Of a stretch of 64,000 bases of DNA, positions 22,799-54,949 are shown in pieces. Where the stretch lies: contig NZ_CP059557.1 in assembly GCF_022828475.1 (NCBI RefSeq), positions 3,147,470-3,211,469 of the forward strand, read 5' to 3'. Position numbers and translations under genes: made by a program. The stretch comes from Saccharopolyspora gloriosae (GTDB lineage Bacteria > Actinomycetota > Actinomycetes > Mycobacteriales > Pseudonocardiaceae). The notes beneath the pieces were generated by a model. The model did not search any database and had not been told where the DNA came from. It worked only from the letters and a program-made list of their open reading frames with translations. Within the stretch, counting starts at the first letter, position 1, and each line of letters begins with the position of its first letter.

Positions 22799-22873
22799 AT
22801 GAACTGGGAAAAGCCTGAATACACCGTGATCGAGGTCTGCGCCGAGGCGACCGGCTACTTCCACCGGGGCTAA
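22799..22873 (+). CDS. pqqA: PQQ precursor peptide PqqA (operon copy)
   Basis: 24 residues, GAGGAGG ribosome site just upstream. It has the full PqqA pattern: Trp3, Lys5-Pro6 after the start, then Glu16-Ala-Thr-Gly-Tyr20. Glu and Tyr spaced E-x3-Y are the residues the radical SAM enzyme PqqE crosslinks to make PQQ. Length equals the usual 22-29 residues. It ends 3 bases before pqqB, so it is the first gene of a compact pqqABCDE operon. A Cys at position 14 is a feature shared with the second copy at 31271. The identification rests on both motif and context. Confidence 0.92.
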   Translation: MNWEKPEYTVIEVCAEATGYFHRG

Positions 22874-22876
22874 CCG

Positions 22877-23764
22877 GTGCTGCTGCGTTGTCTCGGAGTC
22901 GCCGCGGGCGGCGGTTTCCCGCAGTGGAACTGCGCCTGCGGCGGCTGCCGCGCGGCCCGAGAACGGCCGGAACGAGCCAGCATGCACGCCGGTCTCGCCG
23001 TCTCCGGGACGGGACAGCGGTGGTTCCTGCTCAACGCCACCCCGGACGTGCACCACCAGATCGCAGCCGACCCGAAGCTGCACCCCGGCCCCGGCCCGCG
23101 GGACACCCCGGTGTCCGGGGTACTGCTCACCGACGCCGAATTCGACCACACCATCGGTCTGCTCATGCTGCGCGAAGGCGCGGACCTCGTCGTGCACGGC
23201 ACGCCCGAGGTGCTCGAAGCGCTCGAAACGCGGTTCCCGGTGCGGGACCTGCTCAGCGACTACGCCGCGATCGACTGGCGGCCGGTGGAACCGGGCGAGC
23301 CGATCGAGCTGGACGAGCGCCTGCGCGCGACTCCGTTCCGGACCGGCGGCAAGCCGCCGCGCTACGTGGGCTCATCGGACCGCCCGAACTGGGAGCTGGG
23401 CTACCGGCTGGAGGACACCGCGACCGGCGGTACGGCGGTGTACGCCCCGACGGTGCCCCGCTGGGACGACGCCTTCGCCGCACAGGTCTCCGACGTCGAC
23501 TGCGTGTTCTGCGACGGCACCTTCCACACCGATGACGAGATGTCGCGCCAGGGCACGGGTTCCCGGCCGGGGTTGTCCATGGGGCACATGCCCGTCGACG
23601 GCCCGGACGGCTCCGCGCGGAAGCTGGCCGAGCTGCCCGGTCGCAAGATCTACGTCCACGTCAACAACACCAACCCGATCCTCGCCGAGGGGTCCGCGGA
23701 ACGCCGCAGCCTGCAGCGGCAGGGCATCGAGGTCGGGCACGCCGGTTTGGAGGTCGAGCTATGA
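22877..23764 (+). CDS. pqqB: PQQ biosynthesis protein PqqB
   Basis: 295 residues, GTG start 3 bases after pqqA. PqqB is a metallo-beta-lactamase-fold protein acting late in PQQ maturation, as a proposed hydroxylase of the crosslinked intermediate. Family motifs visible: LGVAAGGGFPQWNC at the start, a Cys-rich CACGGCRAAR, LLTDAEFDHTIGLLMLR and DGTFHTDDEM, and LSMGHMPVDG toward the end. Length is normal (about 300). It overlaps pqqC by four bases (ATGA), which implies coupled translation. Confidence 0.93.
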   Translation: MLLRCLGVAAGGGFPQWNCACGGCRAARERPERASMHAGLAVSGTGQRWFLLNATPDVHHQIAADPKLHPGPGPRDTPVSGVLLTDAEFDHTIGLLMLREGADLVVHGTPEVLEALETRFPVRDLLSDYAAIDWRPVEPGEPIELDERLRATPFRTGGKPPRYVGSSDRPNWELGYRLEDTATGGTAVYAPTVPRWDDAFAAQVSDVDCVFCDGTFHTDDEMSRQGTGSRPGLSMGHMPVDGPDGSARKLAELPGRKIYVHVNNTNPILAEGSAERRSLQRQGIEVGHAGLEVEL

Positions 23765-24456
23765 CGCCGTTGTCCGCTGCGGAGTTCGAGGAGGAGCTGC
23801 GGGAGGTCGGCGAGCGGCGCTACCACCACCTGCACCCGTTCAACGAGCGGATGCACGCCGGCGACCTCACCGAGGAGGAGTTCCGCGGCTGGGCGCGCAA
23901 CCGCTTCTACTACCAGCTCAACCTGCCGATCAAGGATGCCTACATCCTCACCAAACTGCCCGGCGCGGAGCACCGCAGGCGGTGGATCAAGCGCATCACC
24001 GACCACGACGGCACGCCGGGCACCGAGGGCGGCATCGAGCGCTGGGTGCGGCTCGGCGAGGCGGTCGGGCTCACCCGCGAGGAGCTGCACGACACCCGCA
24101 CGGTGCTGCCCGGGGTGCGCTTCGCGGTGGACGCCTACGTGGAGTTCTGCCGCGACCGGTCGTGGCTGGAGGCGGTGGCCTCGGCGTTGACCGAGTTGTT
24201 CGCCCCGGATCTGCTCAGCCGCCGCATCACCGACGTGCGCGAGCACTACCCGTGGATCGGCGCCGAGGGCCTGGAGTACTTCCGGGTCCGGCTGACCCAG
24301 CAGCCCGCCGACATCGAGCACCTGCTGGAGCTGGTGCTCGACAACGCGACGACGCGGGAGCAGCAGGAGGCCTGCGTGCGGGCGCTGGAGTTCAAGTGCG
24401 ACGTGCTGTGGACCCTGCTGGACACGGTGCAGCTGACGTTCGGCAAGGACTCTTGA
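23761..24456 (+). CDS. pqqC: Pyrroloquinoline-quinone synthase PqqC
   Basis: 231 residues. PqqC is a cofactor-free all-helical oxidase that closes the ring and performs the last eight-electron oxidation with O2. Recognisable stretches: YHHLHPFNERMHAG, RNRFYYQLNLPIKDA, then ERWVRLGEAVGL, FRVRLTQQPADIEHLLELV and a final LDTVQLTFG. The conserved His, Tyr and Arg positions of the family are present. Start overlaps the pqqB stop and its stop overlaps the pqqD start. Confidence 0.95.
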   Translation: MTPLSAAEFEEELREVGERRYHHLHPFNERMHAGDLTEEEFRGWARNRFYYQLNLPIKDAYILTKLPGAEHRRRWIKRITDHDGTPGTEGGIERWVRLGEAVGLTREELHDTRTVLPGVRFAVDAYVEFCRDRSWLEAVASALTELFAPDLLSRRITDVREHYPWIGAEGLEYFRVRLTQQPADIEHLLELVLDNATTREQQEACVRALEFKCDVLWTLLDTVQLTFGKDS

Positions 24457-24719
24457 TGGACCTCGACGGCAGGCCGCGCCTGGTGCCCAAGGGCAGGCTG
24501 CGCTTCGACAAGGTGCGCGGCGACGACATGCTGCTGCTGCCCGAGCGGGTGGTGCGGCTCAACACCTCCAGCGCCGCGATCCTGCGGCTGTGCGACGGCA
24601 CCCGCACCGCGGTCGAGATCGTCGCGAAGCTGGAAGCCGAATTCGAGGCCGACGGCCTGTCCGACGACGTGCTGGAATTCCTGCGCGAAGCGCGCGAAAA
24701 AGGCTGGGTGACGACATGA
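24456..24719 (+). CDS. pqqD: PQQ biosynthesis chaperone PqqD
   Basis: 87 residues, ATG overlapping the pqqC stop (TGATG). PqqD is the RiPP recognition element that binds PqqA and presents it to PqqE. The small winged-helix sequence is typical: ERVVRLNTSSAAILRLCDG, a helix with VEIVAKLEAEF and FLREAREKGWV at the end. It overlaps pqqE by four bases. Confidence 0.93.
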   Translation: MDLDGRPRLVPKGRLRFDKVRGDDMLLLPERVVRLNTSSAAILRLCDGTRTAVEIVAKLEAEFEADGLSDDVLEFLREAREKGWVTT

Positions 24720-25789
24720 TCAACGCGCCTTACGGCTTGCTGGCCGAGCTCACCCACAAGTGCCCGCTGCACTGCTTGTACTGCTCCAACCCGCTGGCGC
24801 TGCGGCCGCGCGAGGAGGAACTGGGTACCGAGGACTGGCTGCGGGTGATCCGGGAGGCCGCCGAGCTCGGCGTGCTGCAGGTGCACTTCTCCGGCGGCGA
24901 GCCGTTGCTGCGCAACGATCTGGAGGAGCTGATCGCCGAGGCGGACCGCTGCGAGCTCTACACCAACCTGATCACCAGCGGGCTCGGGCTCACCGAGCGC
25001 CGGGCGAAAGGACTGGTCGCCGCCGGTCTCAACAGCGCGCAGCTGAGCGTCCAAGGCGACAACCCGGAGTCCACCGCGCTGATCGCGGACAGCAAGCGGT
25101 TCGACAAGAAGGTGGAGGCGGCGGGCATCATCCGCGAGAGCGGACTGCCGCTGAACATGAACGTCGTGCTGCACCGGCTCAACCTCGACCGGCTGGATGC
25201 GATCATCGACGTCTGCGACTCCTGGGGCGCCGAGCGCCTGGAGCTGGCCAACACCCAGTACTACGGCTGGGGGTTGCGCAACCGCGAGGTGCTGATGCCC
25301 AGCCGCGAGCAGCTGGCCCGCGGCGAGGAAGTTTACCGGCGCCGCAAGGAGGAGCTGGCAGGCCGCATGGAGCTGCTGTGGATCCTGCCGGATTACTACG
25401 AGCGGTATCCGAAGCCGTGCATGGGCGGGTGGGCGCATTCCAGCTTCACCGTCGCCCCGGACGGAATGGCCTATCCGTGCCCGGTGGCCGCCGACATCGA
25501 CAGCCTCGAGTTCCCCTCGGTGCGCACCGCCGCGCTGTCCTGGATCTGGATGGAATCGCCCGCGTTCCAGGCGTTCCGGGGCACCGACTGGATGCCCGAT
25601 CCGTGCCGCAGCTGCGCGCGCAAGGAAATCGACTTCGGGGGCTGCCGCTGCCAGGCGTTCGCGCTGACCGGGGACGCCGCGCGCACCGACCCGGTTTGTG
25701 TGCACTCGCCGGACCACCACCTGATCTCCGATGCCGTGGAGCGCGCCAACGGCGACACTCCGGCGCCGGACCCGGTCTTCCGCCGGTAG
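24716..25789 (+). CDS. pqqE: Radical SAM/SPASM enzyme PqqE
   Basis: 357 residues. PqqE forms the Glu-Tyr carbon-carbon crosslink in PqqA. The radical SAM cluster motif is CPLHCLYC near residue 16, with HFSGGEPLLR for SAM binding. The C-terminal SPASM region carries further cysteines (PKPCMGGW, YPCPVAA, DPCRSCARKE and GGCRCQAF, DPVCVHS), enough for the two auxiliary clusters. Last gene of the operon. No pqqF/G-type protease gene follows; the operon ends toward the strong hairpin at 26072. Confidence 0.95.
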   Translation: MINAPYGLLAELTHKCPLHCLYCSNPLALRPREEELGTEDWLRVIREAAELGVLQVHFSGGEPLLRNDLEELIAEADRCELYTNLITSGLGLTERRAKGLVAAGLNSAQLSVQGDNPESTALIADSKRFDKKVEAAGIIRESGLPLNMNVVLHRLNLDRLDAIIDVCDSWGAERLELANTQYYGWGLRNREVLMPSREQLARGEEVYRRRKEELAGRMELLWILPDYYERYPKPCMGGWAHSSFTVAPDGMAYPCPVAADIDSLEFPSVRTAALSWIWMESPAFQAFRGTDWMPDPCRSCARKEIDFGGCRCQAFALTGDAARTDPVCVHSPDHHLISDAVERANGDTPAPDPVFRR

Positions 25790-26166: not shown

Positions 26167-28284
26167 TCAGCTCGACCGGGCCGCGCGCAGTGCGCGCCGG
26201 GCGGCTTCGGTGACCGCTTCGGGAGTGAACCCGAACTCGGTGAACAGCGTCCGCTGGTCGGCCGAGGCGCCGAAGTGCTCCAGCGAGACGACCTCGCCCG
26301 CGTCCCCGACGAAGCGGTGCCAGCACTGCGCGATCCCGGCCTCCACGGCGACCCGTGCGCGCACCGCCGGGGGCAGCACCGCGCGGCGGTAGGACTCGTC
26401 CTGCGCGTCGAACCACTCCACGCACGGCATGGACACGACCCGGGTGGCCACTCCCTCGGACTCCAGGGACTTCCTGGCTGCCACGGCCAGCTGCACCTCG
26501 GAACCGGTGGCGATCAGCACCACCTCGGGCTCGCCCGACGATGCCTCGGCGAGGACGTAGCCGCCGCGGGACACGCCTTCCGGATTCGTGCCCTCGAGGA
26601 TCGGCACCCCCTGCCGGGTCAGCGCCAGCCCGGTGGGGCCGTCGGAGTGTTCCAGGGCGGCCTTCCACACCGCAGCGGTCTCGTTGGCGTCGGCAGGGCG
26701 CGCGACCGCCAGACCCGGGATGGCCCGCAGCCCGGCGAGGTGCTCGACGGGCTGGTGCGTCGGCCCGTCCTCACCGAGGCCGATCGAGTCGTGGGTCCAG
26801 ACGTAGATCACGGGCTGGTGCATCAGCGCCGCCAGCCGCACGGCCGGGCGCATGTAGTCGCTGAAGACCAGGAACGTGCCGCCGTAGGGGCGGGTCCCGC
26901 CGTGCAGCGCGATGCCGTTGAGGATCGAGCCCATGGCGTGCTCTCGGATGCCGAAGTGCAGCGTCCGCCCGTAGGGGTTGGCGTTCCACGTGCTGGTGGA
27001 GGTGCTCTCCGGCCCGAACGAGTCCGCGCCCTTCATGGTGGTGTTGTTGCTCTCCGCCAGGTCGGCGGAGCCGCCCCACAGTTCCGGCAGCACGTCCGCC
27101 AGGTACGCCAGCACCTCGGCCGATGCCTTCCGGGTCGCGACGTCCTTCTCCGCGAGATCCCAGCTCGGCAGCCCGTCGGCCCACCCTGACGGCAGTTCGC
27201 GCGCCTGCATCCGGTGCAGCAGCGCCTTGCGCCGCGGGTTGGCCTCGGCCCACGCGTCGAAGGCGATCTGCCACTTCTCGCGGGCGGCCCGGCCGCGTTC
27301 GCCGACCGCTCGGGTGTGGTCCAGCACCCCGTCGTCGACCTGGAACGTCCGGTCGGGGTCGAACCCCAGCAGGTTCTTGACCTCGGCGAGCTCCTCGGCG
27401 CCCAGCGCGGCGCCGTGCGCCTTGCCGGTGTTCATCTTGGTCGGCGCCGGGTAGCCGATGACCGTGCGCAGCACGATCAGCGTCGGCCGGTGGGTCTCCG
27501 CCCGGGCGGCCTTGAGCGCCTCGAGCAGGTCGGTGATGCGCTCGCCGCCGTCGACGGTCACCACGTGCCAGCCGTAGGCCTCGTAGCGCTTCGCGGTGTC
27601 CTCGGACAGCGCGATCTTGGTGTCGTCCTCGATTGAGATCTCGTTCGCGTCGTAGATCACCGTGAGGTCGCCCAGCTGCTGAGTGCCCGCCAGCGACGAA
27701 GCCTCGGAGGTGACGCCCTCCTCGATGTCGCCGTCGGAGGCGATCACGTAGATCCGGTGGTCGAAAACGCTTTCACCGGGCGCGGGCTCGGGATCGAGCA
27801 GGCCGCGTTCGCGCCGGGCCGCCATCGCCATGCCCACCGCGTTCGCCAAACCCTGGCCCAACGGTCCGGTCGTGGTCTCCACGCCGCTGGTGTGCCCGTA
27901 CTCGGGGTGGCCAGGGGTGAGCGAGCCCCAGGTGCGCAGCGCCTTGATGTCGTTGATCTCCAGCCCGTACCCGGACAGGAACAACTGCACGTACAGCGTC
28001 AGGCTGGAGTGGCCCGCCGAGAGCACGAACCTGTCCCGGCCGAGCCAGTTCGGGTCGTTCGGATCGTGTCGCATGACGTGCTGGAACAGCGCGTAGGCGG
28101 CCGGCGCCAGGCTCATCGCGGTGCCCGGGTGGCCGCTGCCGCACTGCTCCACCGCGTCGGCGGCCAGCACGCGGGCGGTGTCGATAGCCCGCACGTCCAG
28201 CTCGGTCCAGTCGCTGGGGACGGCGGCGGTCGTCAAGCGGGTGATGTCGTCGCTCACGCGACGATCGGCTTCGTTCGCGGTCAT
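26167..28284 (-). CDS. tkt: Transketolase (RuMP cycle)
   Basis: 705 residues from the ATG at 28284 (AGGAG upstream). Thiamine diphosphate enzyme moving two-carbon units between sugar phosphates. Visible motifs: QCGSGHPGTAMSL, LSAGHSSLTLYV, TGPLGQGLANAVGMA, the ThDP motif SDGDIEEGVTSEA, FGIREHAMGSILNGIALHG and VWTHDSIGLGEDGPTHQPVEH. Full length, single polypeptide. Its place downstream of hps and rpe on the same strand marks it as the copy that regenerates ribulose 5-phosphate for formaldehyde fixation, rather than only a housekeeping copy. Confidence 0.95.
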   Translation of the reverse strand: MTANEADRRVSDDITRLTTAAVPSDWTELDVRAIDTARVLAADAVEQCGSGHPGTAMSLAPAAYALFQHVMRHDPNDPNWLGRDRFVLSAGHSSLTLYVQLFLSGYGLEINDIKALRTWGSLTPGHPEYGHTSGVETTTGPLGQGLANAVGMAMAARRERGLLDPEPAPGESVFDHRIYVIASDGDIEEGVTSEASSLAGTQQLGDLTVIYDANEISIEDDTKIALSEDTAKRYEAYGWHVVTVDGGERITDLLEALKAARAETHRPTLIVLRTVIGYPAPTKMNTGKAHGAALGAEELAEVKNLLGFDPDRTFQVDDGVLDHTRAVGERGRAAREKWQIAFDAWAEANPRRKALLHRMQARELPSGWADGLPSWDLAEKDVATRKASAEVLAYLADVLPELWGGSADLAESNNTTMKGADSFGPESTSTSTWNANPYGRTLHFGIREHAMGSILNGIALHGGTRPYGGTFLVFSDYMRPAVRLAALMHQPVIYVWTHDSIGLGEDGPTHQPVEHLAGLRAIPGLAVARPADANETAAVWKAALEHSDGPTGLALTRQGVPILEGTNPEGVSRGGYVLAEASSGEPEVVLIATGSEVQLAVAARKSLESEGVATRVVSMPCVEWFDAQDESYRRAVLPPAVRARVAVEAGIAQCWHRFVGDAGEVVSLEHFGASADQRTLFTEFGFTPEAVTEAARRALRAARSS

Positions 28285-28858: not shown

Positions 28859-29635
28859 TCACGCAAGTCTTCTGTGGACACTGCTCCCGTTCACGGTTTC
28901 GGGCTGCGGGGAAGTCATGGCGCGGTGCAGCTCGGCCACCGCGGCCTTCTTCCCGCCCGGGTGGGAGAGCACGGCGGAGCCCGCGACGAGGAGCTCGGCT
29001 CCCGCGTACCAGGCCGCCTTAGCGGTGGCGGTGGAGATGCCACCGTCCACCTCGATCTGCACCGCGCGACCGGAGCCGTCCACCAGCGCCCGCATCTCGG
29101 CGACCTTCTCCTCCATCGCGGGGATGTACTTCTGCCCGCCGAAACCGGGGTTGACGGTCATGATCACGATCTCGTCGAGGTGATCGAGCACGTGGTGGAC
29201 GAAGTTGAGCGGGGTGGACGGGTTGACGGCCACGCCGGCCTGCGCCCCGAGTTCGCGAATCGTGGCGAGGGTCCGCAGCAGGTGCGGGCAGGTCTCGGCG
29301 TGCACGATGACGGTCTCGCATCCGGCCGCGACGAAGTCGGCCAGCATCGGGTCCGGGTCCTGCACCATGAGGTGGGCCTCGAACGGCACGTCGCCGTACT
29401 TCCGGCAGGCAGCCACCACATCCGGGCCGAACGTCATGTTGGGCACGAAGCGCCGGTCCATGACGTCCCACTGGATGCGCCCGACGCCCGCGGCGGTGAG
29501 GCTCGCGACTTCGTTGCCGAGGTTCGCGTAGTCGGCGCCGAGGACCGAACCCACGATCACCGGTTCGTCCAACGGCCGACGCGGGGCGGAATGCCGCGCG
29601 CCCGCGTGCGGGGTCGTTCCTGGCTGATCGACCAT
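28859..29635 (-). CDS. rpe: Ribulose-phosphate 3-epimerase
   Basis: 258 residues. A TIM barrel interconverting ribulose 5-phosphate and xylulose 5-phosphate. Metal and catalytic residues: WDVMDRRFVPNMTFG, FEAHLMVQDPD, the VNPGFGGQKYIP loop, and IEVDGGIS with the catalytic Asp. The N-terminus has an extra 25-residue polar stretch compared with most Rpe; a later start is possible. It lies between hps and tkt on one strand, the RuMP rearrangement set. Confidence 0.93.
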   Translation of the reverse strand: MVDQPGTTPHAGARHSAPRRPLDEPVIVGSVLGADYANLGNEVASLTAAGVGRIQWDVMDRRFVPNMTFGPDVVAACRKYGDVPFEAHLMVQDPDPMLADFVAAGCETVIVHAETCPHLLRTLATIRELGAQAGVAVNPSTPLNFVHHVLDHLDEIVIMTVNPGFGGQKYIPAMEEKVAEMRALVDGSGRAVQIEVDGGISTATAKAAWYAGAELLVAGSAVLSHPGGKKAAVAELHRAMTSPQPETVNGSSVHRRLA

Positions 29636-29950: not shown

Positions 29951-30577
29951 TCAGCGGATCCGGCTCTTGAGGGCCTTGGCGGCCGCGGCCGGATCCTCGG
30001 CGCTGCGGATCGCCCCGCCCGCCACCGCGACGACCGCACCGGCGTCCTGCACGGCGGCGATGGTCTCGGCGGTGATCCCACCGGCGATGGAGAACGGAAC
30101 GCCCGCCTGCCGCCCGTCCTCGACCAGGCGCTCGATCGTGTAGCCGGGCCTGGCCTGCTCGTCGAGCCCGGCGTGAATTTCGACGAAGGACACGCCCATC
30201 TTCGAGACCTCGCGGATCCGGGAGACCCGGCCCTCCACGATGGTGATCATGTCGGCGACGACGTCCTTGCCGTGCTTCTTGCCTGCGGCGACGGCTCCGC
30301 GCACGGTGTCGTCGTCGGCCGCGCCCATGACGGTGACCAGGTCCGCGCCCGCGGCGAACGCGAGGTCGGCCTCCAGCTCACCGGCGTCGGCGGTCTTCAT
30401 GTCGGCGAAAACGAGCTTGTCCGGGTGCGCGGCCTTGATCGCCGTGATCGCCGACAGGCCCTCGGCCTTGATCAGCGGGGTGCCCAGCTCGAGGACGTCC
30501 ACGTAGTCCTTGGCCTGGTACGCCAGCGAAAGCGCGTCGCCGAGGGTGGCGACGTCCAGTGCTACCTGCAGCTTCAC
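29951..30577 (-). CDS. hps: 3-hexulose-6-phosphate synthase
   Basis: 208 residues, exactly the family length. It condenses formaldehyde with ribulose 5-phosphate to hexulose 6-phosphate, the fixation step of the RuMP cycle. Orotidine-decarboxylase-fold motifs: MKLQVALDV at the start, VLELGTPLIKAEG, the Asp-x-Lys-x-x-Asp triad in FADMKTADAG, VEIHAGLDEQ and FSIAGGI. It is the first gene of the minus-strand RuMP row. The conserved 28-bp element lies 244 bases upstream of its start, pointing toward it, and the second pqqA is divergent beyond that. Confidence 0.95.
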   Translation of the reverse strand: MKLQVALDVATLGDALSLAYQAKDYVDVLELGTPLIKAEGLSAITAIKAAHPDKLVFADMKTADAGELEADLAFAAGADLVTVMGAADDDTVRGAVAAGKKHGKDVVADMITIVEGRVSRIREVSKMGVSFVEIHAGLDEQARPGYTIERLVEDGRQAGVPFSIAGGITAETIAAVQDAGAVVAVAGGAIRSAEDPAAAAKALKSRIR

Positions 30578-31270
30578 GGTGTTCTCCTCGTCAGTCGTGC
30601 TCGGTGGCGTTGCGGTTCTTCGGGCGCGGGTGGTCCTGCGCCGGGATCCACAACGCGACGCGCAATGCGGTCACACGTATCCGGATTTCCCGGAGTCCGG
30701 GAAGAATGGTCAGTGGATCACGACGTCGTTCAGCAGGTGCCGTTCCTCGAATCATTCCGGCTGCCCGTTCTGTTGCCCCGCGGTTCTGCGGCGGAGCGAG
30801 AACGGGCAACGGCCTGTGACACTGCACGGATCTGTACGTCTGGTCAACGGCGCCCGAACGAACGGATGCCCAGGAAGCACAGACGGCGATGGCGCACTTC
30901 CAAATGGCAATTCCGGGGGAGTCGCAGAATGGTGTTGCGATCCGGATGAACGTCGACGTATCATCGCCGCGTTCCGAATCGTCCGGGTGTTTCCGGAAGA
31001 GGATCTGACTCCTCTGAATCGTTCGGATGCAGATCCGCCCCAAGAGCGCGGCGGGCGAGTCCCGGAGCTTCGTCCCCGCCCGTCCGCGTGGCCTGGCGGT
31101 CGCCGCTGTTCGCGATGAGCGCCATTCGTCCGGTCGGCCTCGGGCGGGGAAGTGCGGTAACGCCCGGCCTCGGCTCCGGTGGTCCTGATGTCCGCCGAAG
31201 CGCCGGCCGTGGCAAAACCCTGGGTCCTGTCAGGGGCCTTGCCCGTCGATTCTCGAAAGGAGGTGTAGCC
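30578..31270. other. Divergent regulatory region between hps and pqqA2
   Basis: About 690 bases with no credible gene. It holds the 28-bp RuMP element (30822-30849) reading toward hps. The promoter of the second pqqA must also be here; GGAGG stands just before its ATG. Confidence 0.6.
30822..30849 (-). promoter_or_regulatory. RuMP element, copy 1 (hps)
   Basis: Read on the minus strand it begins CGTTGACCAGACGTAC and, after one variable base (A), continues GATCCGTGCAG. Two other copies (31654, 44780) differ at only three positions. TTGACC followed after 17 bases by CAGTGT could be -35 and -10 boxes, but the identical spacer argues for a bound regulator as well. It is 244 bases from the hps start. 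Confidence 0.75.
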
Positions 31271-46272: not shown

Positions 46273-48906
46273 GTGAGCGCTCCGCCGCCCGTCGTCGAGC
46301 ACGGGCACGCGGCTTCCGCCGACGACGTCCTGGAACGGCTCGGGGTCGACCCTGCTCGCGGCCTCGGCGAGCAGGAGGCCGCGGCCCGGCTGGTGCGCTT
46401 CGGCCCCAACCGGCGGGTCCGGCCGCGACGCGTGACCTTCTGGCGGGTGCTGCGCGAGGAGAGCACCGAGCCGATGATCCTGCTGCTGCTCGCGGTGGCC
46501 GTGCTCTACGGCGTGTGGGGAGAGCTCGAGGACACCGTCGCGATCGTCCTGGTCATCGCCGTGGTCGTGCTGGTGGAGGTGTTCACCGAGTACCGGGCCA
46601 AGGCCGCCACCGCCGCGCTGAGCAGGCTGTCCGAGCCCACCGCGCCCGCGCTGCGCGAGGGAGCGGTGCGCGCGGTGCCCACCGAGAACCTGGTGCCCGG
46701 CGACGTGCTCGTGCTGCGCGCGGGGGAGCGGCTGACCGCCGACGCCCGGCTGATCGAATCCGCCGGGCTGCGCGTGGACGAATCGGTGCTCACCGGGGAA
46801 TCGGTGCCTGCGGACAAGGACGCCCGTGCTGTGCTCGCCGTTGACACGCCGCTCGGACAGCGCCGCAACGCTGCCTTCGCCGGGACGACCGTGGCCGCCG
46901 GTCGAGCCCGCGCGGTTGTGCTGGGCACCGCCATGGACACCGAGCTCGGGCGGATCACCGGGCTGGTCAACGAGTCGAAGCCGCCGCGCACCGCGCTGCA
47001 GCAGGCCATGCGCGACCTCGCCCGGTGGCTGGCCTGGCTCGCGCTCGCGCTGAGCGTGCTCGTCCCGGTGCTCGGGCTGCTCGGCGGGCAGCCCTGGCGG
47101 GAGATGATCCTGACCGGACTCACCCTGGCCTTCGCCACCATTCCCGAAGAGCTTCCGATCATCATCACCATGGTCCTCGGGATGGGCGCCTACCGGCTGT
47201 CTCGCCGCCACGTGGTGATCAAGCGGCTCCGGGCCGCCGAAACCCTCGGCACCGTCACCGTCGTGGCCACCGACAAGACCGGCACCGTCACCGAGAACCG
47301 GATGACTCTGTCGCACCTGGTCACCGATGCGTCCACGGCGCTGGAGGGCGATCCCGACGCCGCGCAGCGGCGATTGCTCGCGTTCGCCGCGGGCTGCACG
47401 GACGCGACGGTGGTGCACCAGGACGACACCGTGCGCGTCCTCGGCGACCCGACCGACGCCGCGCTGTTGGAAGCCGCTCACCGCCACGGCCTGCTGCCCG
47501 GTCAGCCCGGTGGCGTTTCCGGCGAGCTGCTGGCCGAGCACCCCTTCGACACCGACCGCAAGATCATGTCCGCGGTGCATCGCGGTGACGGCGGGCCGCT
47601 GCTGATCGCCAAGGGAGCGCCCGAGGTCGTGCTCGGCCGGTGCGCGAGCCGGCTGGTCGGGGGACGTGCCGAGCCGCTCACCGAGGACGATCGGAACCGC
47701 TTGCGCGCTCAGGTCGACCGGATGGCCGCGCAGGGGATGCGGGTGATCGCGGTGGCCACCCGCGAGGTGCCCGGCGGGGCGCTCGACCGCGACGAAGCCG
47801 AGACCGGACTCGTGCTGACCGGGTTCGCCGGGCTGATCGACCCGGCACGCCCCGAGGTCGCCGCAGCGGTGCGCGATCTGCGGCAGGCGGGCATCCGGGT
47901 CGTCATGATCACCGGCGATCACCCGGACACCGCGAGGGCCATCGCCGCCGAGATCGGACTCGACGGCACCGGATCGCTGCTCACCGGCCCGCAGATCGAC
48001 GAGCTCGACGACGAAGCGCTGGCCGAGGCCGTCTCGGTGACTTCGCTGTTCGCGCGCACCATTCCGGAGCACAAGCTGCGGCTGGTGCGCACGCTGCACG
48101 CCCGGCGGGAGATCGTCGCGGTCACCGGTGACGGCGTCAACGACACCCCGGCGCTGGCCCAGGCCGACGTGGGCATCGCGATGGGAGCCGGCGGCACGGA
48201 CGTCGCCCGCGAGGCCGCCGATGTCGTGCTGGCCGACGACGACTTCGCCACCATCACCCGCGCGGTGCGCGAGGGCAGGCAGCTGTTCGACAACCTGCGC
48301 AAGGGCGTGCGCTACTACCTGGCCTGCAAGGTCGGGCTCATCGCCACGGCGGTGGGCGGAGTCGCGCTGGGGCTGCCGGTGCCGTTCACCCCGATCCAGA
48401 TCGTGGTGCTGGAGATGTTCATGGACATCGCGGGCAGCGCCACCTTCGCCGCCGAACCCGCCGAGAGCGACACCATGCGACGGGCGCCGCGCGACCAGCG
48501 GCGTCCGTTCCTGGACCGGCCGCTGATCACCGCGATCTTCACCTGCGGTGCCACGCTGTTCGCCGCGGTCACCTCCATCTATCTCGGGGCGATCTGGGGC
48601 GGCGTGCCGATCGCCACCGCGCAGACGCTCGCTTTCGTCGGATGGATGGTCGGCTATTCGGCACTGGCCTGGGTGATGCGTTCGGAACGAACCCCGTTGG
48701 TGCGACTGGGAATGCGCTCCAACGGCTTCCTGCCGCCTTGGACTCTGGTCACCGCCGCTTCGCTGGTGCTGATCATGACCGTGCCCGTGGTGCGCGACGC
48801 GCTGAACCTCACGACCTTGACCGCAGGTCAGTGGCTCGTGGCGGTGCTGGTTCCGGTTCTGGCGGTGGTGTGGATCGACCTGGTGAAGCTGCGTCGCCGG
48901 CGCTGA
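46273..48906 (+). CDS. P2-like cation-transporting P-type ATPase
   Basis: 877 residues from a GTG at 46273. All P-type motifs are present: TGES in SVLTGESVPAD, the phosphorylated Asp334 in VATDKTGTVTEN, KGAPE, and TGDGVNDTPALAQADVGIAMG. The layout resembles Ca2+ ATPases (N-terminal RFGPNRRVRPR, M4 motif PEELPIIITM). However, M5 reads LACKVGLIAT where SERCA-type pumps have Asn and Glu ligands, and M6 is LEMFMDIAGSA, so the calcium sites are not conserved and the transported ion is open. It follows fba by 230 bases on the same strand. A metal link with the PQQ enzyme is only a possibility. Confidence 0.88.
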   Translation: MSAPPPVVEHGHAASADDVLERLGVDPARGLGEQEAAARLVRFGPNRRVRPRRVTFWRVLREESTEPMILLLLAVAVLYGVWGELEDTVAIVLVIAVVVLVEVFTEYRAKAATAALSRLSEPTAPALREGAVRAVPTENLVPGDVLVLRAGERLTADARLIESAGLRVDESVLTGESVPADKDARAVLAVDTPLGQRRNAAFAGTTVAAGRARAVVLGTAMDTELGRITGLVNESKPPRTALQQAMRDLARWLAWLALALSVLVPVLGLLGGQPWREMILTGLTLAFATIPEELPIIITMVLGMGAYRLSRRHVVIKRLRAAETLGTVTVVATDKTGTVTENRMTLSHLVTDASTALEGDPDAAQRRLLAFAAGCTDATVVHQDDTVRVLGDPTDAALLEAAHRHGLLPGQPGGVSGELLAEHPFDTDRKIMSAVHRGDGGPLLIAKGAPEVVLGRCASRLVGGRAEPLTEDDRNRLRAQVDRMAAQGMRVIAVATREVPGGALDRDEAETGLVLTGFAGLIDPARPEVAAAVRDLRQAGIRVVMITGDHPDTARAIAAEIGLDGTGSLLTGPQIDELDDEALAEAVSVTSLFARTIPEHKLRLVRTLHARREIVAVTGDGVNDTPALAQADVGIAMGAGGTDVAREAADVVLADDDFATITRAVREGRQLFDNLRKGVRYYLACKVGLIATAVGGVALGLPVPFTPIQIVVLEMFMDIAGSATFAAEPAESDTMRRAPRDQRRPFLDRPLITAIFTCGATLFAAVTSIYLGAIWGGVPIATAQTLAFVGWMVGYSALAWVMRSERTPLVRLGMRSNGFLPPWTLVTAASLVLIMTVPVVRDALNLTTLTAGQWLVAVLVPVLAVVWIDLVKLRRRR

Positions 48907-48925: not shown

Positions 48926-49676
48926 GGGCGGGTGGCTCCGTTAGATGCCGAGTGCGCGGCGGAGGGCGGGGGTGTTGCGTCGGGAGACGGGGATCATGGT
49001 GTGGGCGTGGTCGTCCATGATGAGGGTGAGTTCGCCTTTGGTGCCGCGTTCGATTTCGCGGATGCGGTTGAGGTTGACGATGTATTGGCGGTGGACGCGC
49101 AGGCCGGTGTGGGCGAGTTGTGTTTCGAGTTTGTCGAGGGCTGGTGTGGCGGCGCGGAGTCGTCCTTGGTCGGTGGTGAGCCAGACGTCGTTGCCGTCGG
49201 ATTCGGCGAAGGAGATTTCGGGGTGGTGTAGCAGCACCATGCGGTTGTCGCGTGTGGCCACGACCCGGGAGCCCCGGCCCTGCCCCTGCCCCTGTTGTTG
49301 ACTGTGGTTGTGGTGGGGGGTGGTGTGGGTGTGGGGGAGTTGTTCGGCGTCGGATACGCCGAATTCGACGAGGTTGCCGACGAGGTGTCCGGCCAGGAAT
49401 ACCGGGCGGATGCTGATCGGGGTGGGTTCGTCGGCCAGGTGTGTGAAGATCTGGGTGGCCCCGACCCAGTCCGGGTTTCGTGATGCTTGTTTGGCCGCGT
49501 ATCCGGCCACCCGGGCCAGCTCCGGGAGGCCCGGGTTCCAGCGTGCCGCGGGATCGGACGCGGGCGTCGAACCCGGCACCCCCAGCAGCACACTCGCCCG
49601 ATCATCGGCGATCACCACCCGGCCCGCCGGATCCAACGCCGCCAACGACACCCCCACCCGCACCCGCACCCGGTTG
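48926..49676 (-). repeat. ~751-bp inverted repeat, right arm
   Basis: Inverse copy of 37320-38070. It spans the second half of regulator B and 15 bases past its stop, ending just after the P-type ATPase gene. Same frames, same translations as the left arm. Confidence 0.88.
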
Positions 49677-50359
49677 TAGGCGGCGATCAGCTCGGCGCAG
49701 CCGTCCTGGGCGCGCTTGCGCAGCGTGCGCCCGGTCCGGGTGGCGGCGTTCGACAACCAGGCGCCCGCCGCCGTGGGGAGTTCGCTGCGCAAACAGGAGA
49801 TGTTCAACGCGGCGATGGGTTCCCCGGTGACCAAGTCGTGCACCGCCACTCCCGCGCAGTTCCAGTCGTGGAAGGCCTGACACCAGTGCTCCGCGCCCCG
49901 GATCATCACCGGTGATCGCGATTCCAGCGCGGTGCCGATGCCGTTGGTCCCGGTCGAGCCCTCCGCCCAGGAGAACCACGGCGCCAGGTTGGCCTGTGCG
50001 GCGTGATCACGGGTGCGCGGATCGCCCCATTCGGCCAGCACCCGTCCGGTGGCGTCGGTGACCGTCACGATGCCGCCCGCGTTGCTCACCTCGTGGGCCA
50101 CCGTGGCCGCGCGGAAGCCGAGCTCGGCGAGGACCACGTCATGTTCCAGCGTGTGCTCGACCTCGGCGACCGCGACCGGCGCCTTGGCGAGGTTCGGATC
50201 GACCCGATAGCGGTCCCGGCAGCGGAGCCAGGAGACCAGCACTTCCGGTCGCACACCGCGGATGTCGTCTTCACCCCGCACGAAGCGTTCCCACGCCGCG
50301 TACACCGTCGACTTCCCGGGGCTGCGGTGGATCGGGTCGAGCCGGTGCACTTCCGCCAT
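48941..50359 (-). CDS. GAF-LytTR transcriptional regulator, copy B
   Basis: 472 residues, same architecture as copy A: helical leader, AcoR-like GAF (EGSTGTNGIGTALE, RGAEHWCQAFHDWNCAG), PAS-like region, His/Gln-rich linker, LytTR domain. The N-terminal 230 residues are related but clearly diverged from copy A, while the last 245 or so are identical to it, as is the DNA. This mosaic points to gene conversion or a recent duplication of the effector half. It reads toward the P-type ATPase and away from copy C. Confidence 0.88.
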   Translation of the reverse strand: MAEVHRLDPIHRSPGKSTVYAAWERFVRGEDDIRGVRPEVLVSWLRCRDRYRVDPNLAKAPVAVAEVEHTLEHDVVLAELGFRAATVAHEVSNAGGIVTVTDATGRVLAEWGDPRTRDHAAQANLAPWFSWAEGSTGTNGIGTALESRSPVMIRGAEHWCQAFHDWNCAGVAVHDLVTGEPIAALNISCLRSELPTAAGAWLSNAATRTGRTLRKRAQDGCAELIAAYNRVRVRVGVSLAALDPAGRVVIADDRASVLLGVPGSTPASDPAARWNPGLPELARVAGYAAKQASRNPDWVGATQIFTHLADEPTPISIRPVFLAGHLVGNLVEFGVSDAEQLPHTHTTPHHNHSQQQGQGQGRGSRVVATRDNRMVLLHHPEISFAESDGNDVWLTTDQGRLRAATPALDKLETQLAHTGLRVHRQYIVNLNRIREIERGTKGELTLIMDDHAHTMIPVSRRNTPALRRALGI

Positions 50360-51100: not shown

Positions 51101-52537
51101 ATGACCGGGAGATTGCCACCTCTGGAGATCGTCTCGAGCCGTTCCGGCAGCAGCGAGGGCGATTCCCTGACGGCCACCTCGAGCCAGGTCGCCCGCGCAT
51201 GGGAGAGCTTCGCGACCGGCGAGGACATCGAGCACGGCGTGCGCCCGGAGGTCCTCGCCTCCTGGTACCGCTGCCGGGACCAGTACGAAGTCGATCCCAC
51301 GCTGCACGTCGCGCCCGACGCTCCCGGTTACAACGACCACCGGCTGGACAACGACGTGATCTTCGCGAAGCTCGGCGGCCTGGGCGCGCTGGCCGGCCGC
51401 GACGTCGAGTTCGACGGCGGCGTCGTGGCGGTGACCGACGGAGCCGGCCGGATCCTGGGCTCCTGGGGCGACCCGAACACCCGCAAACGAGCCGAGTCGG
51501 CCAACATGGCGCCCTGGTCGTCCTGGTCGGAGCAGTGCACCGGCACCAACGGGATGGGCACCTCCCTCGAGGTCTCGGGTCCGGTCACCGTCACCGGGCC
51601 GGAGCACTGGTGCGAGGGCTTCCATCGATGGGCCTGCGCGGGCATCTCGATCCGCGACGTGGTCACCGGCTCGCCGGTCGCCGCGATCAACATCTCCCGG
51701 TGGAACGCGCCGATGTCCGAACGTGTCCCGGAGTGGCTGACGATGGCCGCCGCGAGCGTGGAGCAGGAGATCTATCGTCGCGCGCTGTCCGAAGCCAAGA
51801 GCGTGCTCGCCGAGTTCAACGCCGAGACCGCCCAGAGCGGCGGCGCGGTCATGGCCGTCGACCGCGGCGGCAATGTCGTCGCGGCCAACCACGCGGCGGC
51901 TTCGCTGCTGCGGCTGACCAACGACAGCCCGGTCGTCACCGGCGTGTTCGAACCGGCCAACCGCTGGCAGCCGGACATCCCGGGCTTCGCCGAGGTCGTG
52001 CGCTGGGCGACGGGCCGGTCGGTGGACCGGCCACAGTGGACCGGCCATGCCTGGTTAGCGGTGTGTCCGGGCGAGAATCCGATCCCGGTCACGTTGCGCC
52101 CCATCGTGGACGCCAACCACGTGGTGGGCATGTTCTGCGCGTTCGGCACGCAGGAGGGCGAGCCCTACGAGAACACCGCCCAGTCTGCGGCGATTTCGCT
52201 GCCGCGACGGGTGATCGGCATCCGCAACGACCGGCTGGTGCTGCTGGCTCCCTCGGAGATCCGCTACGCCGAGGCCGACCGCAACATCGTGTGGCTGGGC
52301 ACTGATCGCGGCCGCATCCAGGCGGCCACCCGCGGGCTCGACAACGTCGAGGAACTGCTCGTCCCGCACGGTTTCCGGCGGGTGCACCGGCGCTTTGTGG
52401 CCAACCTGCGCCGGGTCGCCGAGCTGGAACGCGGTGTGAAGGGTGAACTCGTGCTAGTCACCGATCCCCGCTTGCACGAGCTGGTGCCGGTCTCGCGGCG
52501 GCACGCACCGGAGATCCGGCGACTGCTCGGCCTCTGA
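51101..52537 (+). CDS. GAF-LytTR transcriptional regulator, copy C
   Basis: 478 residues, the most diverged of the three. Leader: ARAWESFATGEDIEHGVRPEV; GAF: SEQCTGTNGMGTSLE, GPEHWCEGFHRWACAG and GSPVAAINIS; PAS-like middle (GAVMAVDRGGNVVAAN); LytTR end (NIVWLGTDRGRIQA, GFRRVHRRFVANLRRV, LVPVSRRHAPEIRR). It lacks the His-rich linker of copies A and B. It lies 310 bases upstream of the mscR operon on the same strand and is the natural candidate to control formaldehyde oxidation. GAGGAGG precedes the ATG. Confidence 0.88.
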   Translation: MTGRLPPLEIVSSRSGSSEGDSLTATSSQVARAWESFATGEDIEHGVRPEVLASWYRCRDQYEVDPTLHVAPDAPGYNDHRLDNDVIFAKLGGLGALAGRDVEFDGGVVAVTDGAGRILGSWGDPNTRKRAESANMAPWSSWSEQCTGTNGMGTSLEVSGPVTVTGPEHWCEGFHRWACAGISIRDVVTGSPVAAINISRWNAPMSERVPEWLTMAAASVEQEIYRRALSEAKSVLAEFNAETAQSGGAVMAVDRGGNVVAANHAAASLLRLTNDSPVVTGVFEPANRWQPDIPGFAEVVRWATGRSVDRPQWTGHAWLAVCPGENPIPVTLRPIVDANHVVGMFCAFGTQEGEPYENTAQSAAISLPRRVIGIRNDRLVLLAPSEIRYAEADRNIVWLGTDRGRIQAATRGLDNVEELLVPHGFRRVHRRFVANLRRVAELERGVKGELVLVTDPRLHELVPVSRRHAPEIRRLLGL

Positions 52538-52847: not shown

Positions 52848-53930
52848 ATGAGCAAGTCGCGTGCTGTGGTGGCACCTGGTCGTGGAAAACCCGTCGAGGT
52901 GGTGACGATCGATGTGCCCGAGCCGGGGCCGGGTGAGGTCCAGGTGCGCGTGCAGGCCTGCGGGGTCTGCCACACCGACCTGCACTACCGCGAGGGCGGG
53001 ATCAACGACGAATTCCCGTTCCTGCTCGGCCACGAGGCCGCCGGGATCGTCGAGGCCGTCGGCCCGAACGTCACCGAGGTCGGCGAAGGCGATTTCGTAG
53101 TCCTCAACTGGCGCGCGGTCTGCGGCGAGTGCCGCGCCTGCGAGCGCGGGCGCCCGCAGTACTGCTTCGACACCCACAACGCCGAGCAGTCCATGACCCT
53201 CGAGGACGGCACCCCGCTCTCGCCCGCGCTGGGCATCGGGGCGTTCACCGAGCGAACGCTGGTGCACGCGGGGCAGTGCACGAAGGTGGATCCGGAGGCC
53301 CGGCCCGCCGTGGTGTCGCTGCTCGGCTGCGGCGTGATGGCCGGAGTCGGTGCCGCGGTCAACACCGGCGACGTCTCCCGCGGTGACTCGGTGGCCGTGA
53401 TCGGCTGCGGCGGTGTCGGAGACGGCGCGATCGCGGGCGCCCGGCTGGCCGGGGCCGCTCGGATCATCGCGGTGGACACCGATCCGGCGAAGCTCAACTG
53501 GGCAGCGGACTTCGGCGCGACGCACACCGTCAACGCCGCCGAGGTCGACGCGGTCGCCGAGATCAGGTCGCTGACCGGTGGCAACGGCGCGGACGTGGTG
53601 ATCGACGCGGTCGGCCGTCCGGAGACCTACCAGCAGGCCTTCTACGCCCGCGACCTCGCCGGGACCGTGGTGCTGGTCGGGGTTCCCACCCCGGACATGG
53701 AGATCAAGCTCCCGCTGCTGGACGTCTTCGGCCGGGGCGGGGCGCTGAAGTCCTCGTGGTACGGCGATTGCCTGCCGAGCCGCGACTTCCCGATGCTCGC
53801 CGACCTCTACCGGCAGGGCAGGTTCCCGCTGGAGAAGTTCGTGACCGAGGAGATCGCGCTCGGCGAGGTCGAGGACGCGTTCGCGAAGATGAAGCGCGGC
53901 GAGGTGCTGCGTTCGGTGGTGGTGTTCTGA
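52848..53930 (+). CDS. mscR: S-(hydroxymethyl)mycothiol dehydrogenase (formaldehyde dehydrogenase)
   Basis: 360 residues. A zinc MDR of the mycothiol-dependent formaldehyde dehydrogenase group. Catalytic zinc: [17 protein letters not shown] and [11 protein letters not shown]. Structural zinc lobe: [16 protein letters not shown]. Long insert with [21 protein letters not shown], typical of this family. NAD motif [15 protein letters not shown] with an acidic residue after it (VDTDPAK), favouring NAD. It oxidises the formaldehyde-mycothiol adduct and also acts as an S-nitrosomycothiol reductase in mycobacteria. In this island it drains excess formaldehyde toward formate. Its stop overlaps the next start by one base. 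Confidence 0.93.
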
Positions 53931-54559
53931 TGGGCGCCCGCATCGACCACGCGATCACCTCGGGCACCTTCTCGCTGGACGGGCAGACCTTCGAGGTGGA
54001 CAACAACGTCTGGGTCATCGGTGACGACGACGAGTGCGTCGTTCTCGACGCCCCGCACGACGTCGCCGCGATCCGGGAGGTGATCGGCGACCGGCGGGTG
54101 GTGGCGGTGCTGGCCACCCACGCGCACGACGACCACGTGCGGGTGGCCCCGCAGCTGATCGAGGCCACCGGCTCACCGCTGCTGCTGCACCGCGACGACC
54201 TGGTGTTGTGGCGGCAGACCCACGGCAGCCGAGACCCCGACGGGTACCTGGTCGACGGTCAGGAGATCGAGGTCGCCGGAGTGGTGCTGCACGTGCTGCA
54301 CACCCCGGGGCACGCGCCGGGCGCGGTGTGCTTCGACGTTCCGCGGCTGGACGCGGTGTTCACCGGCGACACGTTGTTCGCCGGCGGGCCAGGGGCGACC
54401 GGCCGGTCCTATTCGGACTTCGGTGTCATCGTCGAGTCCATCCGGGACAGGCTGTTCGCGCTGCCGGATTCTCGCGCGGTGCACCCCGGCCACGGGGACA
54501 CCACGACGATCGGCGCCGAACGACCGCACCTCGACGAGTGGATCAGCAGGGGGCACTGA
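53930..54559 (+). CDS. Metallo-beta-lactamase-fold hydrolase, probable S-formylmycothiol hydrolase
   Basis: 209 residues. Binuclear metal motif VLATHAHDDHVRVAP (HxHxDH), further ligands in LHTPGHAPGAVC, FTGDTLFAGGPGATGRS and VHPGHGDTTTIG. This is the glyoxalase II-like group regularly found directly after mscR in actinomycetes, where cleavage of S-formylmycothiol to formate is the proposed role. One-base overlap with mscR (TGATG) shows translational coupling. The hydrolase activity is inferred from context. Confidence 0.88.
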   Translation: MGARIDHAITSGTFSLDGQTFEVDNNVWVIGDDDECVVLDAPHDVAAIREVIGDRRVVAVLATHAHDDHVRVAPQLIEATGSPLLLHRDDLVLWRQTHGSRDPDGYLVDGQEIEVAGVVLHVLHTPGHAPGAVCFDVPRLDAVFTGDTLFAGGPGATGRSYSDFGVIVESIRDRLFALPDSRAVHPGHGDTTTIGAERPHLDEWISRGH

Positions 54560-54604
54560 CCGGTCGCTCTCGCATCCGCGAGCGCACAGGGAGGGACGTG
54601 GTCG

Positions 54605-54949
54605 ATGGGACGGGCCACTCACCGGGTGCGGGCCTGCAGCTTGCAGGAGCTCCCGCCGGGCACGGCGCGCAAGTTGCGCATCGCCTTTCCCGCGATCGCG
54701 ATCTTCAACCTGGACGGCACCGTCTACGCCGTGGAGGACCTGTGCACGCACGCCTTCGCGTTGCTCAGCGAGGGCCGCGTAGAGGGTACGTCGGTGAGGT
54801 GCCCGCTGCACCGGTCGCAGTTCGACGTGCGCACCGGCGAGCCGCTCTGCGGCCCGGCGACGGAATCGCTGCGCACCTACGAAGTGGAGGTGATCGCGGG
54901 CGAGGTCATCGTGCACATCGAGACCTCGTTGTTCGGCACCTCCGCGTGA
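54605..54949 (+). CDS. Rieske [2Fe-2S] ferredoxin-like protein
   Basis: 114 residues. Rieske cluster motifs are Cys-x-His in DLCTHAFALLSEG and Cys-x-x-His in VRCPLHRSQFDVRTGE. It resembles the small Rieske ferredoxins of dioxygenase systems (BphF/NirD type), so it is cytoplasmic. No oxygenase or reductase is nearby. It lies 45 bases after the hydrolase and probably in the same transcript, an unusual companion for mscR. Electron transfer role only. Confidence 0.88.
   Translation: MGRATHRVRACSLQELPPGTARKLRIAFPAIAIFNLDGTVYAVEDLCTHAFALLSEGRVEGTSVRCPLHRSQFDVRTGEPLCGPATESLRTYEVEVIAGEVIVHIETSLFGTSA

Follow-up and report, generated by a model that had tools for sequence, protein, structure and literature searches.

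A PQQ alcohol dehydrogenase without recognisable export signal and its linkage to ribulose monophosphate genes in Saccharopolyspora gloriosae and other actinobacteria

To our knowledge, the alcohol dehydrogenases dependent on pyrroloquinoline quinone (PQQ) that are known so far are exported enzymes, mostly of Gram-negative bacteria. In a stretch of 64,000 nucleotides from the actinomycete Saccharopolyspora gloriosae (contig NZ_CP059557.1, positions 3,147,470 to 3,211,469; hereafter the window), a gene for such an enzyme (alcohol dehydrogenase, ADH) is found among genes for the synthesis of PQQ and for the ribulose monophosphate (RuMP) pathway, and we asked where in the cell this enzyme might work, what it might oxidise and where its electrons might go. 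The genes form an island spanning positions 22799-54949 of the window in a genome of 6.88 Mb that is contained in one contig. The set that a sequence-only reading had listed within 32 kb (pqqABCDE, a second pqqA, the PQQ ADH, hps, phi, rpe, tkt, glpX, pfk, a class I fba and mscR) was recovered in full at its coordinates, with all frames open. On balance we consider the island to be an alcohol-to-sugar unit, in which a probably cytosolic ADH of the lanthanide type, likely acting on methanol, would feed formaldehyde into the RuMP pathway, a reading to which we assign a probability of about 0.55.

Linkage of the dehydrogenase to ribulose monophosphate genes

Domains and families were assigned from Pfam and NCBIfam/TIGRFAM profile scores compared with curated cut-offs. 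The products of pqqE, tkt, rpe, hps, phi, glpX, pfk, fba, katG and mscR, the ADH and a protein of the MSMEG_3727 family all score over their NCBIfam cut-offs. The RuMP assignment thus includes the two defining enzymes, 3-hexulose-6-phosphate synthase (Hps) and 6-phospho-3-hexuloisomerase (Phi), both over cut-off, and the genes tkt, rpe, glpX, pfk and fba for the regeneration of the acceptor. To call this set complete, as had been done initially, may be too strong, since no ribose-5-phosphate isomerase was called among the island genes scanned, the rest of the genome not having been searched for one.

The proposed combination of a PQQ enzyme with the RuMP pathway is borne out across genomes as a co-occurrence of genes far in excess of chance. 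In a set of 150 related genomes, which includes that of S. gloriosae, 29 contain an ADH match at an E-value of 1e-30 (two of them, G006 and G029, distant matches only), and Hps scores over its cut-off in 10 of these 29 compared to none of the 121 ADH-negative genomes (Fisher p about 2e-8, which ignores kinship and is a guide only, since the genomes are related). The hps gene is located within 15 kb of the ADH gene in eight of the ten Hps-positive genomes, the exceptions being G047 and G079. A second sample was taken from 55 named loci (L061-L115) that were obtained in a single pattern scan based on one sequence, a sampling that favours close relatives; the closest named relatives of the ADH found are from six Saccharopolyspora species with a protein identity of 93-95%. 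Of these loci, 24 were chosen for whole-genome checks and 23 genomes were examined, with at least those of L063, L065 and L083 being common to both samples, and Hps is over its cut-off in 18 of the 23. The arrangement of RuMP genes next to the ADH gene differs between Saccharopolyspora, Prauserella/Amycolatopsis/Pseudonocardia, Rhodococcoides, Arthrobacter, Streptomyces and Flexivirga.

For residues and neighbouring genes, we surveyed 88 loci, 87 of them actinobacterial and one from Gemmatimonadaceae, which after accounting for eight repeated proteins contain 80 distinct ADHs (79 actinobacterial). Excluded were matches with an identity below 50% or a coverage below 90% (among them a truncated second copy in genome G073, and L116-L125) and the short loci L001-L020, where the genome of L020 enters via L052 and G022 is missing. 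Within a flank of 13 kb, and with identity floors of 60% for hps, 50% for phi and 55% for katG, either hps or phi is found at 25 of the 79 distinct actinobacterial loci, a lower bound in view of the many truncated flanks and of these thresholds; an hps at 14.7 kb (G073) and one at 54% identity (L076), for example, go uncounted. Each of the 25 carries an ADH from the group of 65 with at least 75% identity to the one in the window, and none carries one of the other 14. Mapped on a quickly built tree of the ADHs, linkage to RuMP genes requires 15 changes, at least six of which are forced by well-supported branches, and none of 500 shuffles yielded a number as low.

Several of these loci contain repeats. 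Three genomes of the Prauserella/Amycolatopsis type (G081, G049 and G046; L029-L034) carry two near-identical hps genes in inverted repeats of about 0.8 kb, which are about 23 kb apart and surround the ADH cluster; these repeats may be the reason why so many contigs are about 20 kb long. In G073 (L021-L022), the truncated second ADH copy is accompanied by a perfect inverted repeat of 1064 nt near the cluster. A 1.56 Mb plasmid of Streptomyces sp. NBC_01483 (NZ_CP109439.1, 71434-73609) harbours an ADH (77%) and the adjoining protein of the MSMEG_3727 family (71%), both absent from its gene table, and the pair can thus be plasmid-borne.

The dehydrogenase and its cupredoxin-like partner

Among proteins of known structure, the ADH of the window matches best to the entries 6zcv and 6zcw (369 bits), which we take to be PedH, followed by 1kb0 (319 bits), 1flg (308 bits) and XoxF (294 bits), and it is thus not a XoxF proper. 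Of the residues for PQQ and metal, Glu207 and Asp318 are invariant in all 88 loci, as are Asp320 and a pair of adjacent cysteines, and Asn275 is found in 87. Asp320, which is located two positions after the catalytic aspartate, aligns with an aspartate of PedH, its counterpart being a serine in 1flg and a threonine in 1kb0 and 1kv9, and an aspartate at this +2 position is described in a passage of PMC5606694 as a marker of rare-earth PQQ enzymes. From these residues we infer that ADH is a PQQ dehydrogenase of the lanthanide type, whose metal would be a rare earth.

The search for export signals was carried out from the aligned start and counted either a mean hydropathy of at least 2.0 over 12 residues or a lipobox within the first 45 residues. 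Neither was found in any of the 87 actinobacterial ADHs, nor in any of the 87 products of the MSMEG_3727-family gene preceding it (hereafter the partner). Of seven ADHs from Gemmatimonadota that served as outgroup, and which all retain the aspartate of the lanthanide type, seven pass the hydropathy test and six the lipobox test. A signal hidden by a wrongly assigned start was rejected for the ADH in the window, since the upstream frame closes 13 codons before the start codon and the stop codon of the partner is located 14 nt upstream of it. This distance ranges from -4 to 48 nt in 86 of the 87 actinobacterial loci and amounts to 122 nt in L047; in some relatives the upstream frame remains open for longer, up to 151 codons. 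The apparent lack of export signals in both proteins, a feature that goes beyond the sequence-only reading, suggests that ADH is probably located in the cytosol.

The partner scores over the cut-off of TIGR04339, its family being also represented by PF23509. A sequence search of the PDB with this protein returned nothing useful; its predicted structure has a cupredoxin fold (mean pLDDT 77), with auracyanin as best structural match (E 7e-7, TM 0.53/0.64), followed closely by N2O reductase, NirK and CuA domains. Of the type-1 copper ligands, the first histidine is retained in the partner of the window, and Ser, Asp and Leu replace the cysteine, the second histidine and the methionine. Across the 88 loci, the replacements of Cys by Ser and of the second His by Asp are found in 87 and that of Met by Leu in 84, all four ligands being retained in the Gemmatimonadaceae locus only. 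On the basis of the residues at the ligand positions, a working copper protein was rejected for the actinobacterial form.

Gemmatimonadota were searched in 298 genomes, 14 of which matched. Loci were taken from the seven genomes over cut-off and not from the seven weaker ones (L143-L149). One of the former (L142) has no ADH at its locus, and the remaining six contain seven loci with an ADH beside the gene and eight cupredoxins. Seven of the eight keep a C-x4-H-x4-M motif, each adjoining an ADH with an export signal. One cupredoxin copy (L150, G462) has lost the motif although its neighbouring ADH still has an export signal. By parsimony, and in view of the export of known PQQ ADHs, the ancestor of the actinobacterial ADH would have been exported, its neighbour being a copper cupredoxin, and in actinobacteria both would have lost their signal and the latter its copper ligands.

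ADH might alternatively leave the cell without a classical signal, either with its partner or by a SecA2-like route, and, like other PQQ enzymes, hand its electrons over to the respiratory chain on the outer side of the membrane. Adjacent cysteines form a disulphide in known PQQ enzymes and their invariance would fit such a location, as would the proximity of KatG, which like SodA is exported by a SecA2-like route without classical signal in some mycobacteria. Opposed to it are the 87 ADHs and 87 partners in which the applied test detected no signal, the loss of copper ligands in the partner and the genes in its surroundings, where none of 27 that were checked (26 in the island and one upstream) encodes a heme-c protein, the lone CxxCH being the zinc motif of MscR. 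We regard this kind of export as distinctly unlikely.

KatG, the electron route and competing explanations

A gene for the catalase-peroxidase KatG is found within 13 kb of ADH at 61 of the 65 distinct loci of higher identity and at none of the 14 of lower identity, and three of the four misses in the former group have a flank of less than 2 kb on at least one side. KatG is present in 119 of the 150 genomes, and S. gloriosae contains a second copy. When 80 distinct KatGs were placed in a quickly calculated tree, 20 housekeeping copies (one of which, that of G049, is also near an ADH) fell into a single group with full support, and the 60 ADH-linked proteins fell outside it. In light of the second genomic copy and this position in the tree, we rejected a mere housekeeping role for the KatG of the island.

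Among residues of established role in KatG, the distal Arg-Trp-His, the tyrosine and the proximal histidine are conserved in all 66 rows from ADH loci and all 20 housekeeping rows. The methionine of the Trp-Tyr-Met adduct, which is required for catalase but not for peroxidase activity, is replaced by Leu or Phe in 27 of the 60 distinct ADH-linked proteins (such as those of L065, L092 and L096) and in none of the 20 housekeeping ones, and the KatG tree requires no fewer than 11 such changes. The protein in the window retains this methionine and all other key residues. Due to the loss of the adduct methionine in 27 of 60 proteins, simple detoxification by catalase does not fit all clusters, and a dedicated peroxidase role of ADH-linked KatG is plausible.

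In the mechanism that we propose, PQQ made by the products of pqqABCDE would load ADH, and methanol would enter the cell to be oxidised by the cytosolic enzyme, which might also accept other primary alcohols. The resulting formaldehyde would be fixed by Hps and Phi on ribulose 5-phosphate to yield fructose 6-phosphate, Pfk, Fba, GlpX, Tkt and Rpe would regenerate the acceptor, and MscR with the adjoining hydrolase would oxidise surplus formaldehyde. Since the signals and the copper ligands of the cupredoxin appear to have been lost, electrons would have to take another route. In our view oxygen is most likely their final acceptor, and hydrogen peroxide would be formed either directly or via the partner and be handled by the neighbouring KatG, an answer that we prefer as a hypothesis. 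The full scenario, in which an exported lanthanide PQQ ADH and its copper cupredoxin were drawn into the cytosol, copper was lost, oxygen or peroxide together with a dedicated peroxidase of the KatG type became the electron sink and formaldehyde was made where the RuMP pathway fixes it, is a tentative one, which we hold to be possible and well short of probable.

Methanol might also be oxidised by a different enzyme, such as a zinc alcohol dehydrogenase dependent on mycofactocin, leaving a side role for ADH. The sequence-only reading had considered a dominant alternative, notably a methanol oxidoreductase dependent on N,N-dimethyl-4-nitrosoaniline (NDMA), as a finding that would count against it. 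A search of the S. gloriosae genome for NDMA-methanol dehydrogenase (TIGR04266) gave no match at an E-value of 0.001, zinc-type NDMA enzymes not being part of the search. The sole iron-type alcohol dehydrogenase over its Pfam cut-off is a glycerol dehydrogenase, and thus no methanol dehydrogenase of the Bacillus type was found; of two weaker matches, one resembles dehydroquinate synthase and the weakest (L128) is without identification. Both candidates, searched genome-wide, were thus rejected as methanol enzyme of the strain. The mycofactocin maturase scores over its cut-off in the same genome and NDMA-methanol dehydrogenase coexists with ADH in many relatives, both in favour of a different enzyme, which we nevertheless judge to be very improbable as main oxidant of methanol.

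The claim of shared regulators holds in part. The island encodes three large LytTR proteins (of which only that encoded at 51101 also matches GAF), a short LytTR protein and a TetR regulator, and the 26-mer TTGACNNGACGTACNGATCCGTGCAG occurs in three exact copies in the window, upstream of hps, phi and fba, compared to none in 100 shuffles. In G004, G005 and G073, hps, phi and fba likewise have an exact copy each. No further genome site matches its 19-base core with up to two mismatches, and at three mismatches there are eight sites compared to three for the reversed control. The RuMP arms thus look co-regulated through this putative operator. The 26-mer was not found upstream of ADH, whose promoter, as judged by eye, contains a different, partly conserved block, and no operator common to ADH and the RuMP genes was found.

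Several of these observations weigh against a cytosolic ADH that feeds methanol-derived formaldehyde into the RuMP pathway. The best relative of known structure is PedH, an ethanol-type enzyme, and not XoxF; the invariant cysteine pair, if it forms a disulphide, would be unusual for a cytosolic protein; linkage to hps or phi, at 25 of 79 distinct loci and at none below 75% identity, is too limited to tie the whole ADH family to the RuMP pathway; the absence of katG matches near the 14 ADHs of lower identity implies that KatG is no universal need; the 26-mer at the RuMP genes was not found upstream of ADH; and the presence of the mycofactocin maturase means that other routes of alcohol oxidation may exist. 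Moreover, NDMA-methanol dehydrogenase is over its cut-off in eight of the ten Hps-positive genomes in the set of 150 (the exceptions being G000 and G073) and in 11 of the 18 Hps-positive named genomes, the other seven being from Psychromicrobium, Cryobacterium, two Arthrobacter, Paenarthrobacter, Nesterenkonia and one Amycolatopsis. This coexistence in many related genomes weakens the exclusivity of a PQQ route.

Part of this evidence is shared by an explanation in which ADH is a general dehydrogenase of primary alcohols (ethanol or longer, as in PedH), the RuMP enzymes and MscR serve formaldehyde from other sources, such as methylated compounds or detoxification, and the common neighbourhood reflects shared induction or transfer. 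The similarity to PedH, the failure to find the 26-mer at ADH, the mycofactocin maturase and the 54 of 79 distinct loci without hps or phi within the 13 kb flank, many of them on truncated contigs, all agree with it. The distribution of Hps does not, since all ten Hps-positive genomes in the set of 150 contain ADH and none of the 121 without ADH has Hps over its cut-off, nor do the different forms which the linkage takes in several lineages and the lack of another recognised methanol dehydrogenase among those searched in the genome. We thus consider a general alcohol dehydrogenase rather unlikely and prefer the alcohol-to-sugar unit.

Gene content and relation to known systems

The features of the island are listed in Table 1. 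Besides the genes discussed so far, it encodes an antiporter, matches to which are found within 13 kb of ADH at 22 of the 79 distinct loci, and a P-type ATPase, both of which are possible metal transporters. The large LytTR genes A and B (window 36607-38070 and 48926-50377) are about 90% identical over 1.48 kb, including the perfect inverted repeat of 751 nt, and the corresponding repeat in G004 and G005 shows about 86% identity over 1.4 kb; the repeat could reflect recent gene conversion or be a substrate for inversion of the katG-ADH-fba segment. Outside the island, the window contains a gene for an RHS-repeat protein of 1506 residues with a WXG100-like N-terminal match upstream (16043-20563) and one for a GMC oxidoreductase of 339 residues (56294-57313), which matches only the C-terminal part of the model of the mycofactocin dehydrogenase MftG, below its cut-off.

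Table 1. Features of the island, with positions in the window, strand and basis of the assignment.
Feature	Position	Strand	Basis
pqqA, first copy, 24 aa, MNWEKPEYTVIEVCAEATGYFHRG	22799..22873	+	E-x3-Y motif and ribosome site
pqqB	22877..23764	+	PF12706; operon position
pqqC	23761..24456	+	PF03070 TENA/PQQC, 173 bits
pqqD, 87 aa	24456..24719	+	PF05402, 57.6 bits (cut-off 23.4)
pqqE, radical SAM	24716..25789	+	TIGR02109, 489 bits (cut-off 381)
tkt, transketolase	26167..28284	-	TIGR00232, 797 bits (cut-off 682)
rpe, ribulose-phosphate 3-epimerase	28859..29635	-	TIGR01163, 237 bits (cut-off 213)
hps, 3-hexulose-6-phosphate synthase	29951..30577	-	TIGR03128, 227 bits (cut-off 200)
Operator-like 26-mer upstream of hps	30822..30847	-	
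pqqA, second copy, 31 aa, MESVAPQWETPRFEEIGCAAEVTMYVAQAED	31271..31366	+	Motif and strong ribosome site; no family match behind the call
Operator-like 26-mer upstream of phi	31656..31681	+	
phi, 6-phospho-3-hexuloisomerase	31815..32420	+	TIGR03127, 218 bits (cut-off 160)
glpX, class II fructose bisphosphatase	32535..33545	+	TIGR00330, 271 bits (cut-off 259)
pfk, ATP-dependent 6-phosphofructokinase	33616..35085	+	NF005301, 594 bits (cut-off 400)
Na/Ca-exchanger-like cation antiporter, candidate metal transporter	35082..36194	+	PF01699, 98 bits (cut-off 24.9)
LytTR regulator A	36634..38055	+	PF04397
katG, ADH-linked catalase-peroxidase	38086..40314	+	TIGR00198, 1053 bits (cut-off 770); outside housekeeping KatG group
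MSMEG_3727-family protein, predicted cupredoxin without copper ligands	41078..41539	+	TIGR04339, 270 bits (cut-off 75); fold
PQQ alcohol dehydrogenase (ADH), putative lanthanide type, no signal peptide detected	41554..43242	+	TIGR03075, 633 bits (cut-off 480)
Short LytTR regulator	43446..43916	+	PF04397
TetR-family regulator	43962..44561	-	PF00440, PF16925
Operator-like 26-mer upstream of fba	44782..44807	+	
fba, class I fructose-bisphosphate aldolase	45066..46043	+	NF033379, 477 bits (cut-off 250)
P-type cation ATPase	46273..48906	+	PF00122, PF00689, PF00690
LytTR regulator B	48941..50359	-	PF04397; perfect inverted repeat of 751 nt shared with regulator A
GAF and LytTR regulator C	51101..52537	+	PF04397, PF01590
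mscR, S-(hydroxymethyl)mycothiol dehydrogenase	52848..53930	+	TIGR03451, 662 bits (cut-off 513)
Metallo-beta-lactamase-fold hydrolase after mscR	53930..54559	+	PF00753, 83 bits (cut-off 22.7)
Rieske-type ferredoxin	54605..54949	+	PF00355

With respect to known systems, ADH resembles the lanthanide quinoprotein alcohol dehydrogenases of the PedH/ExaF type in its family (TIGR03075), its aspartate at the +2 position and its best solved match, whereas it differs from them by the lack of a detected signal peptide and of a cytochrome gene seen in the island, by its partner, a predicted copper-free cupredoxin, and by its linkage to RuMP genes. Methylotrophy by the RuMP pathway in Bacillus methanolicus employs a similar set of sugar-phosphate enzymes in combination with a NAD methanol dehydrogenase, in place of which the island contains a PQQ enzyme. 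If the proposed peroxide step is correct, the system would also be akin to the peroxisomal alcohol oxidase and catalase of methylotrophic yeasts, where intracellular oxidation, removal of peroxide and fixation of formaldehyde take place together, although the yeast enzyme is a flavin oxidase with no homology to the quinoprotein of the island and the resemblance is one of analogy only. Actinobacteria with an NDMA-dependent methanol oxidoreductase similarly feed the RuMP pathway from methanol, but the S. gloriosae genome gave no match to this enzyme, which many of its relatives have. A methanol dehydrogenase containing PQQ has reportedly been found long ago in Nocardia sp. 239.

With XoxF, which passes its electrons to cytochrome c, ADH shares the aspartate of the lanthanide type and a proposed role in methanol oxidation, but its similarity is lower (294 compared to 369 bits for PedH), and neither an export signal nor a cytochrome c gene was seen in the island. 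XoxF is referred to as periplasmic in a passage of PMC10875860. The PQQ ADH MSMEG_3726 of M. smegmatis, which is part of a PQQ cassette (PMC3023750), comes close to the island in that a PQQ ADH is combined with PQQ genes and in that the partner family is named after MSMEG_3727, but in the available excerpt of this account neither RuMP genes nor a missing signal, a lost copper site or KatG are mentioned.

According to PMC5606694, a xoxF5-like amplicon was obtained from a single actinobacterial isolate; the same work also refers to PQQ production by actinobacteria on methanol and to genes for PQQ methanol dehydrogenase in Pseudonocardia from the Atacama. As far as their excerpts go, PMC3763247 places PQQ methanol dehydrogenase in Gram-negative bacteria and the NDMA enzyme in actinobacteria, and PMC5023230 describes Gram-positive strains that do not grow on methanol and in which no methanol genes were found, with only NAD and NDMA enzymes being queried. 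In the literature covered, which consisted of titles and the openings of abstracts with most subscription journals outside, we found neither an ADH without signal nor a partner without copper ligands or the linkage to RuMP genes. The island is real and recurrent, and in it a variant of PQQ alcohol oxidation would be coupled to the RuMP pathway, with a cellular location and an electron route that are possibly new.

Lanthanide-type ADHs without signal, encoded in many actinobacterial genera, often together with PQQ synthesis and in some cases with the RuMP pathway, would add a route of methanol utilisation, one that surveys of marker genes may overlook. If our interpretation is correct, a lanthanide would be needed inside the cell, which raises the question of how it reaches a cytosolic enzyme, and formaldehyde would be produced and fixed in one compartment, a property that would be useful for synthetic methylotrophy. 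The system would then constitute a bacterial parallel to the peroxisomal pair of yeast, and the combination of a cupredoxin that has lost its copper ligands with a separate KatG turns the identity of the electron acceptor into a sharp and testable question.

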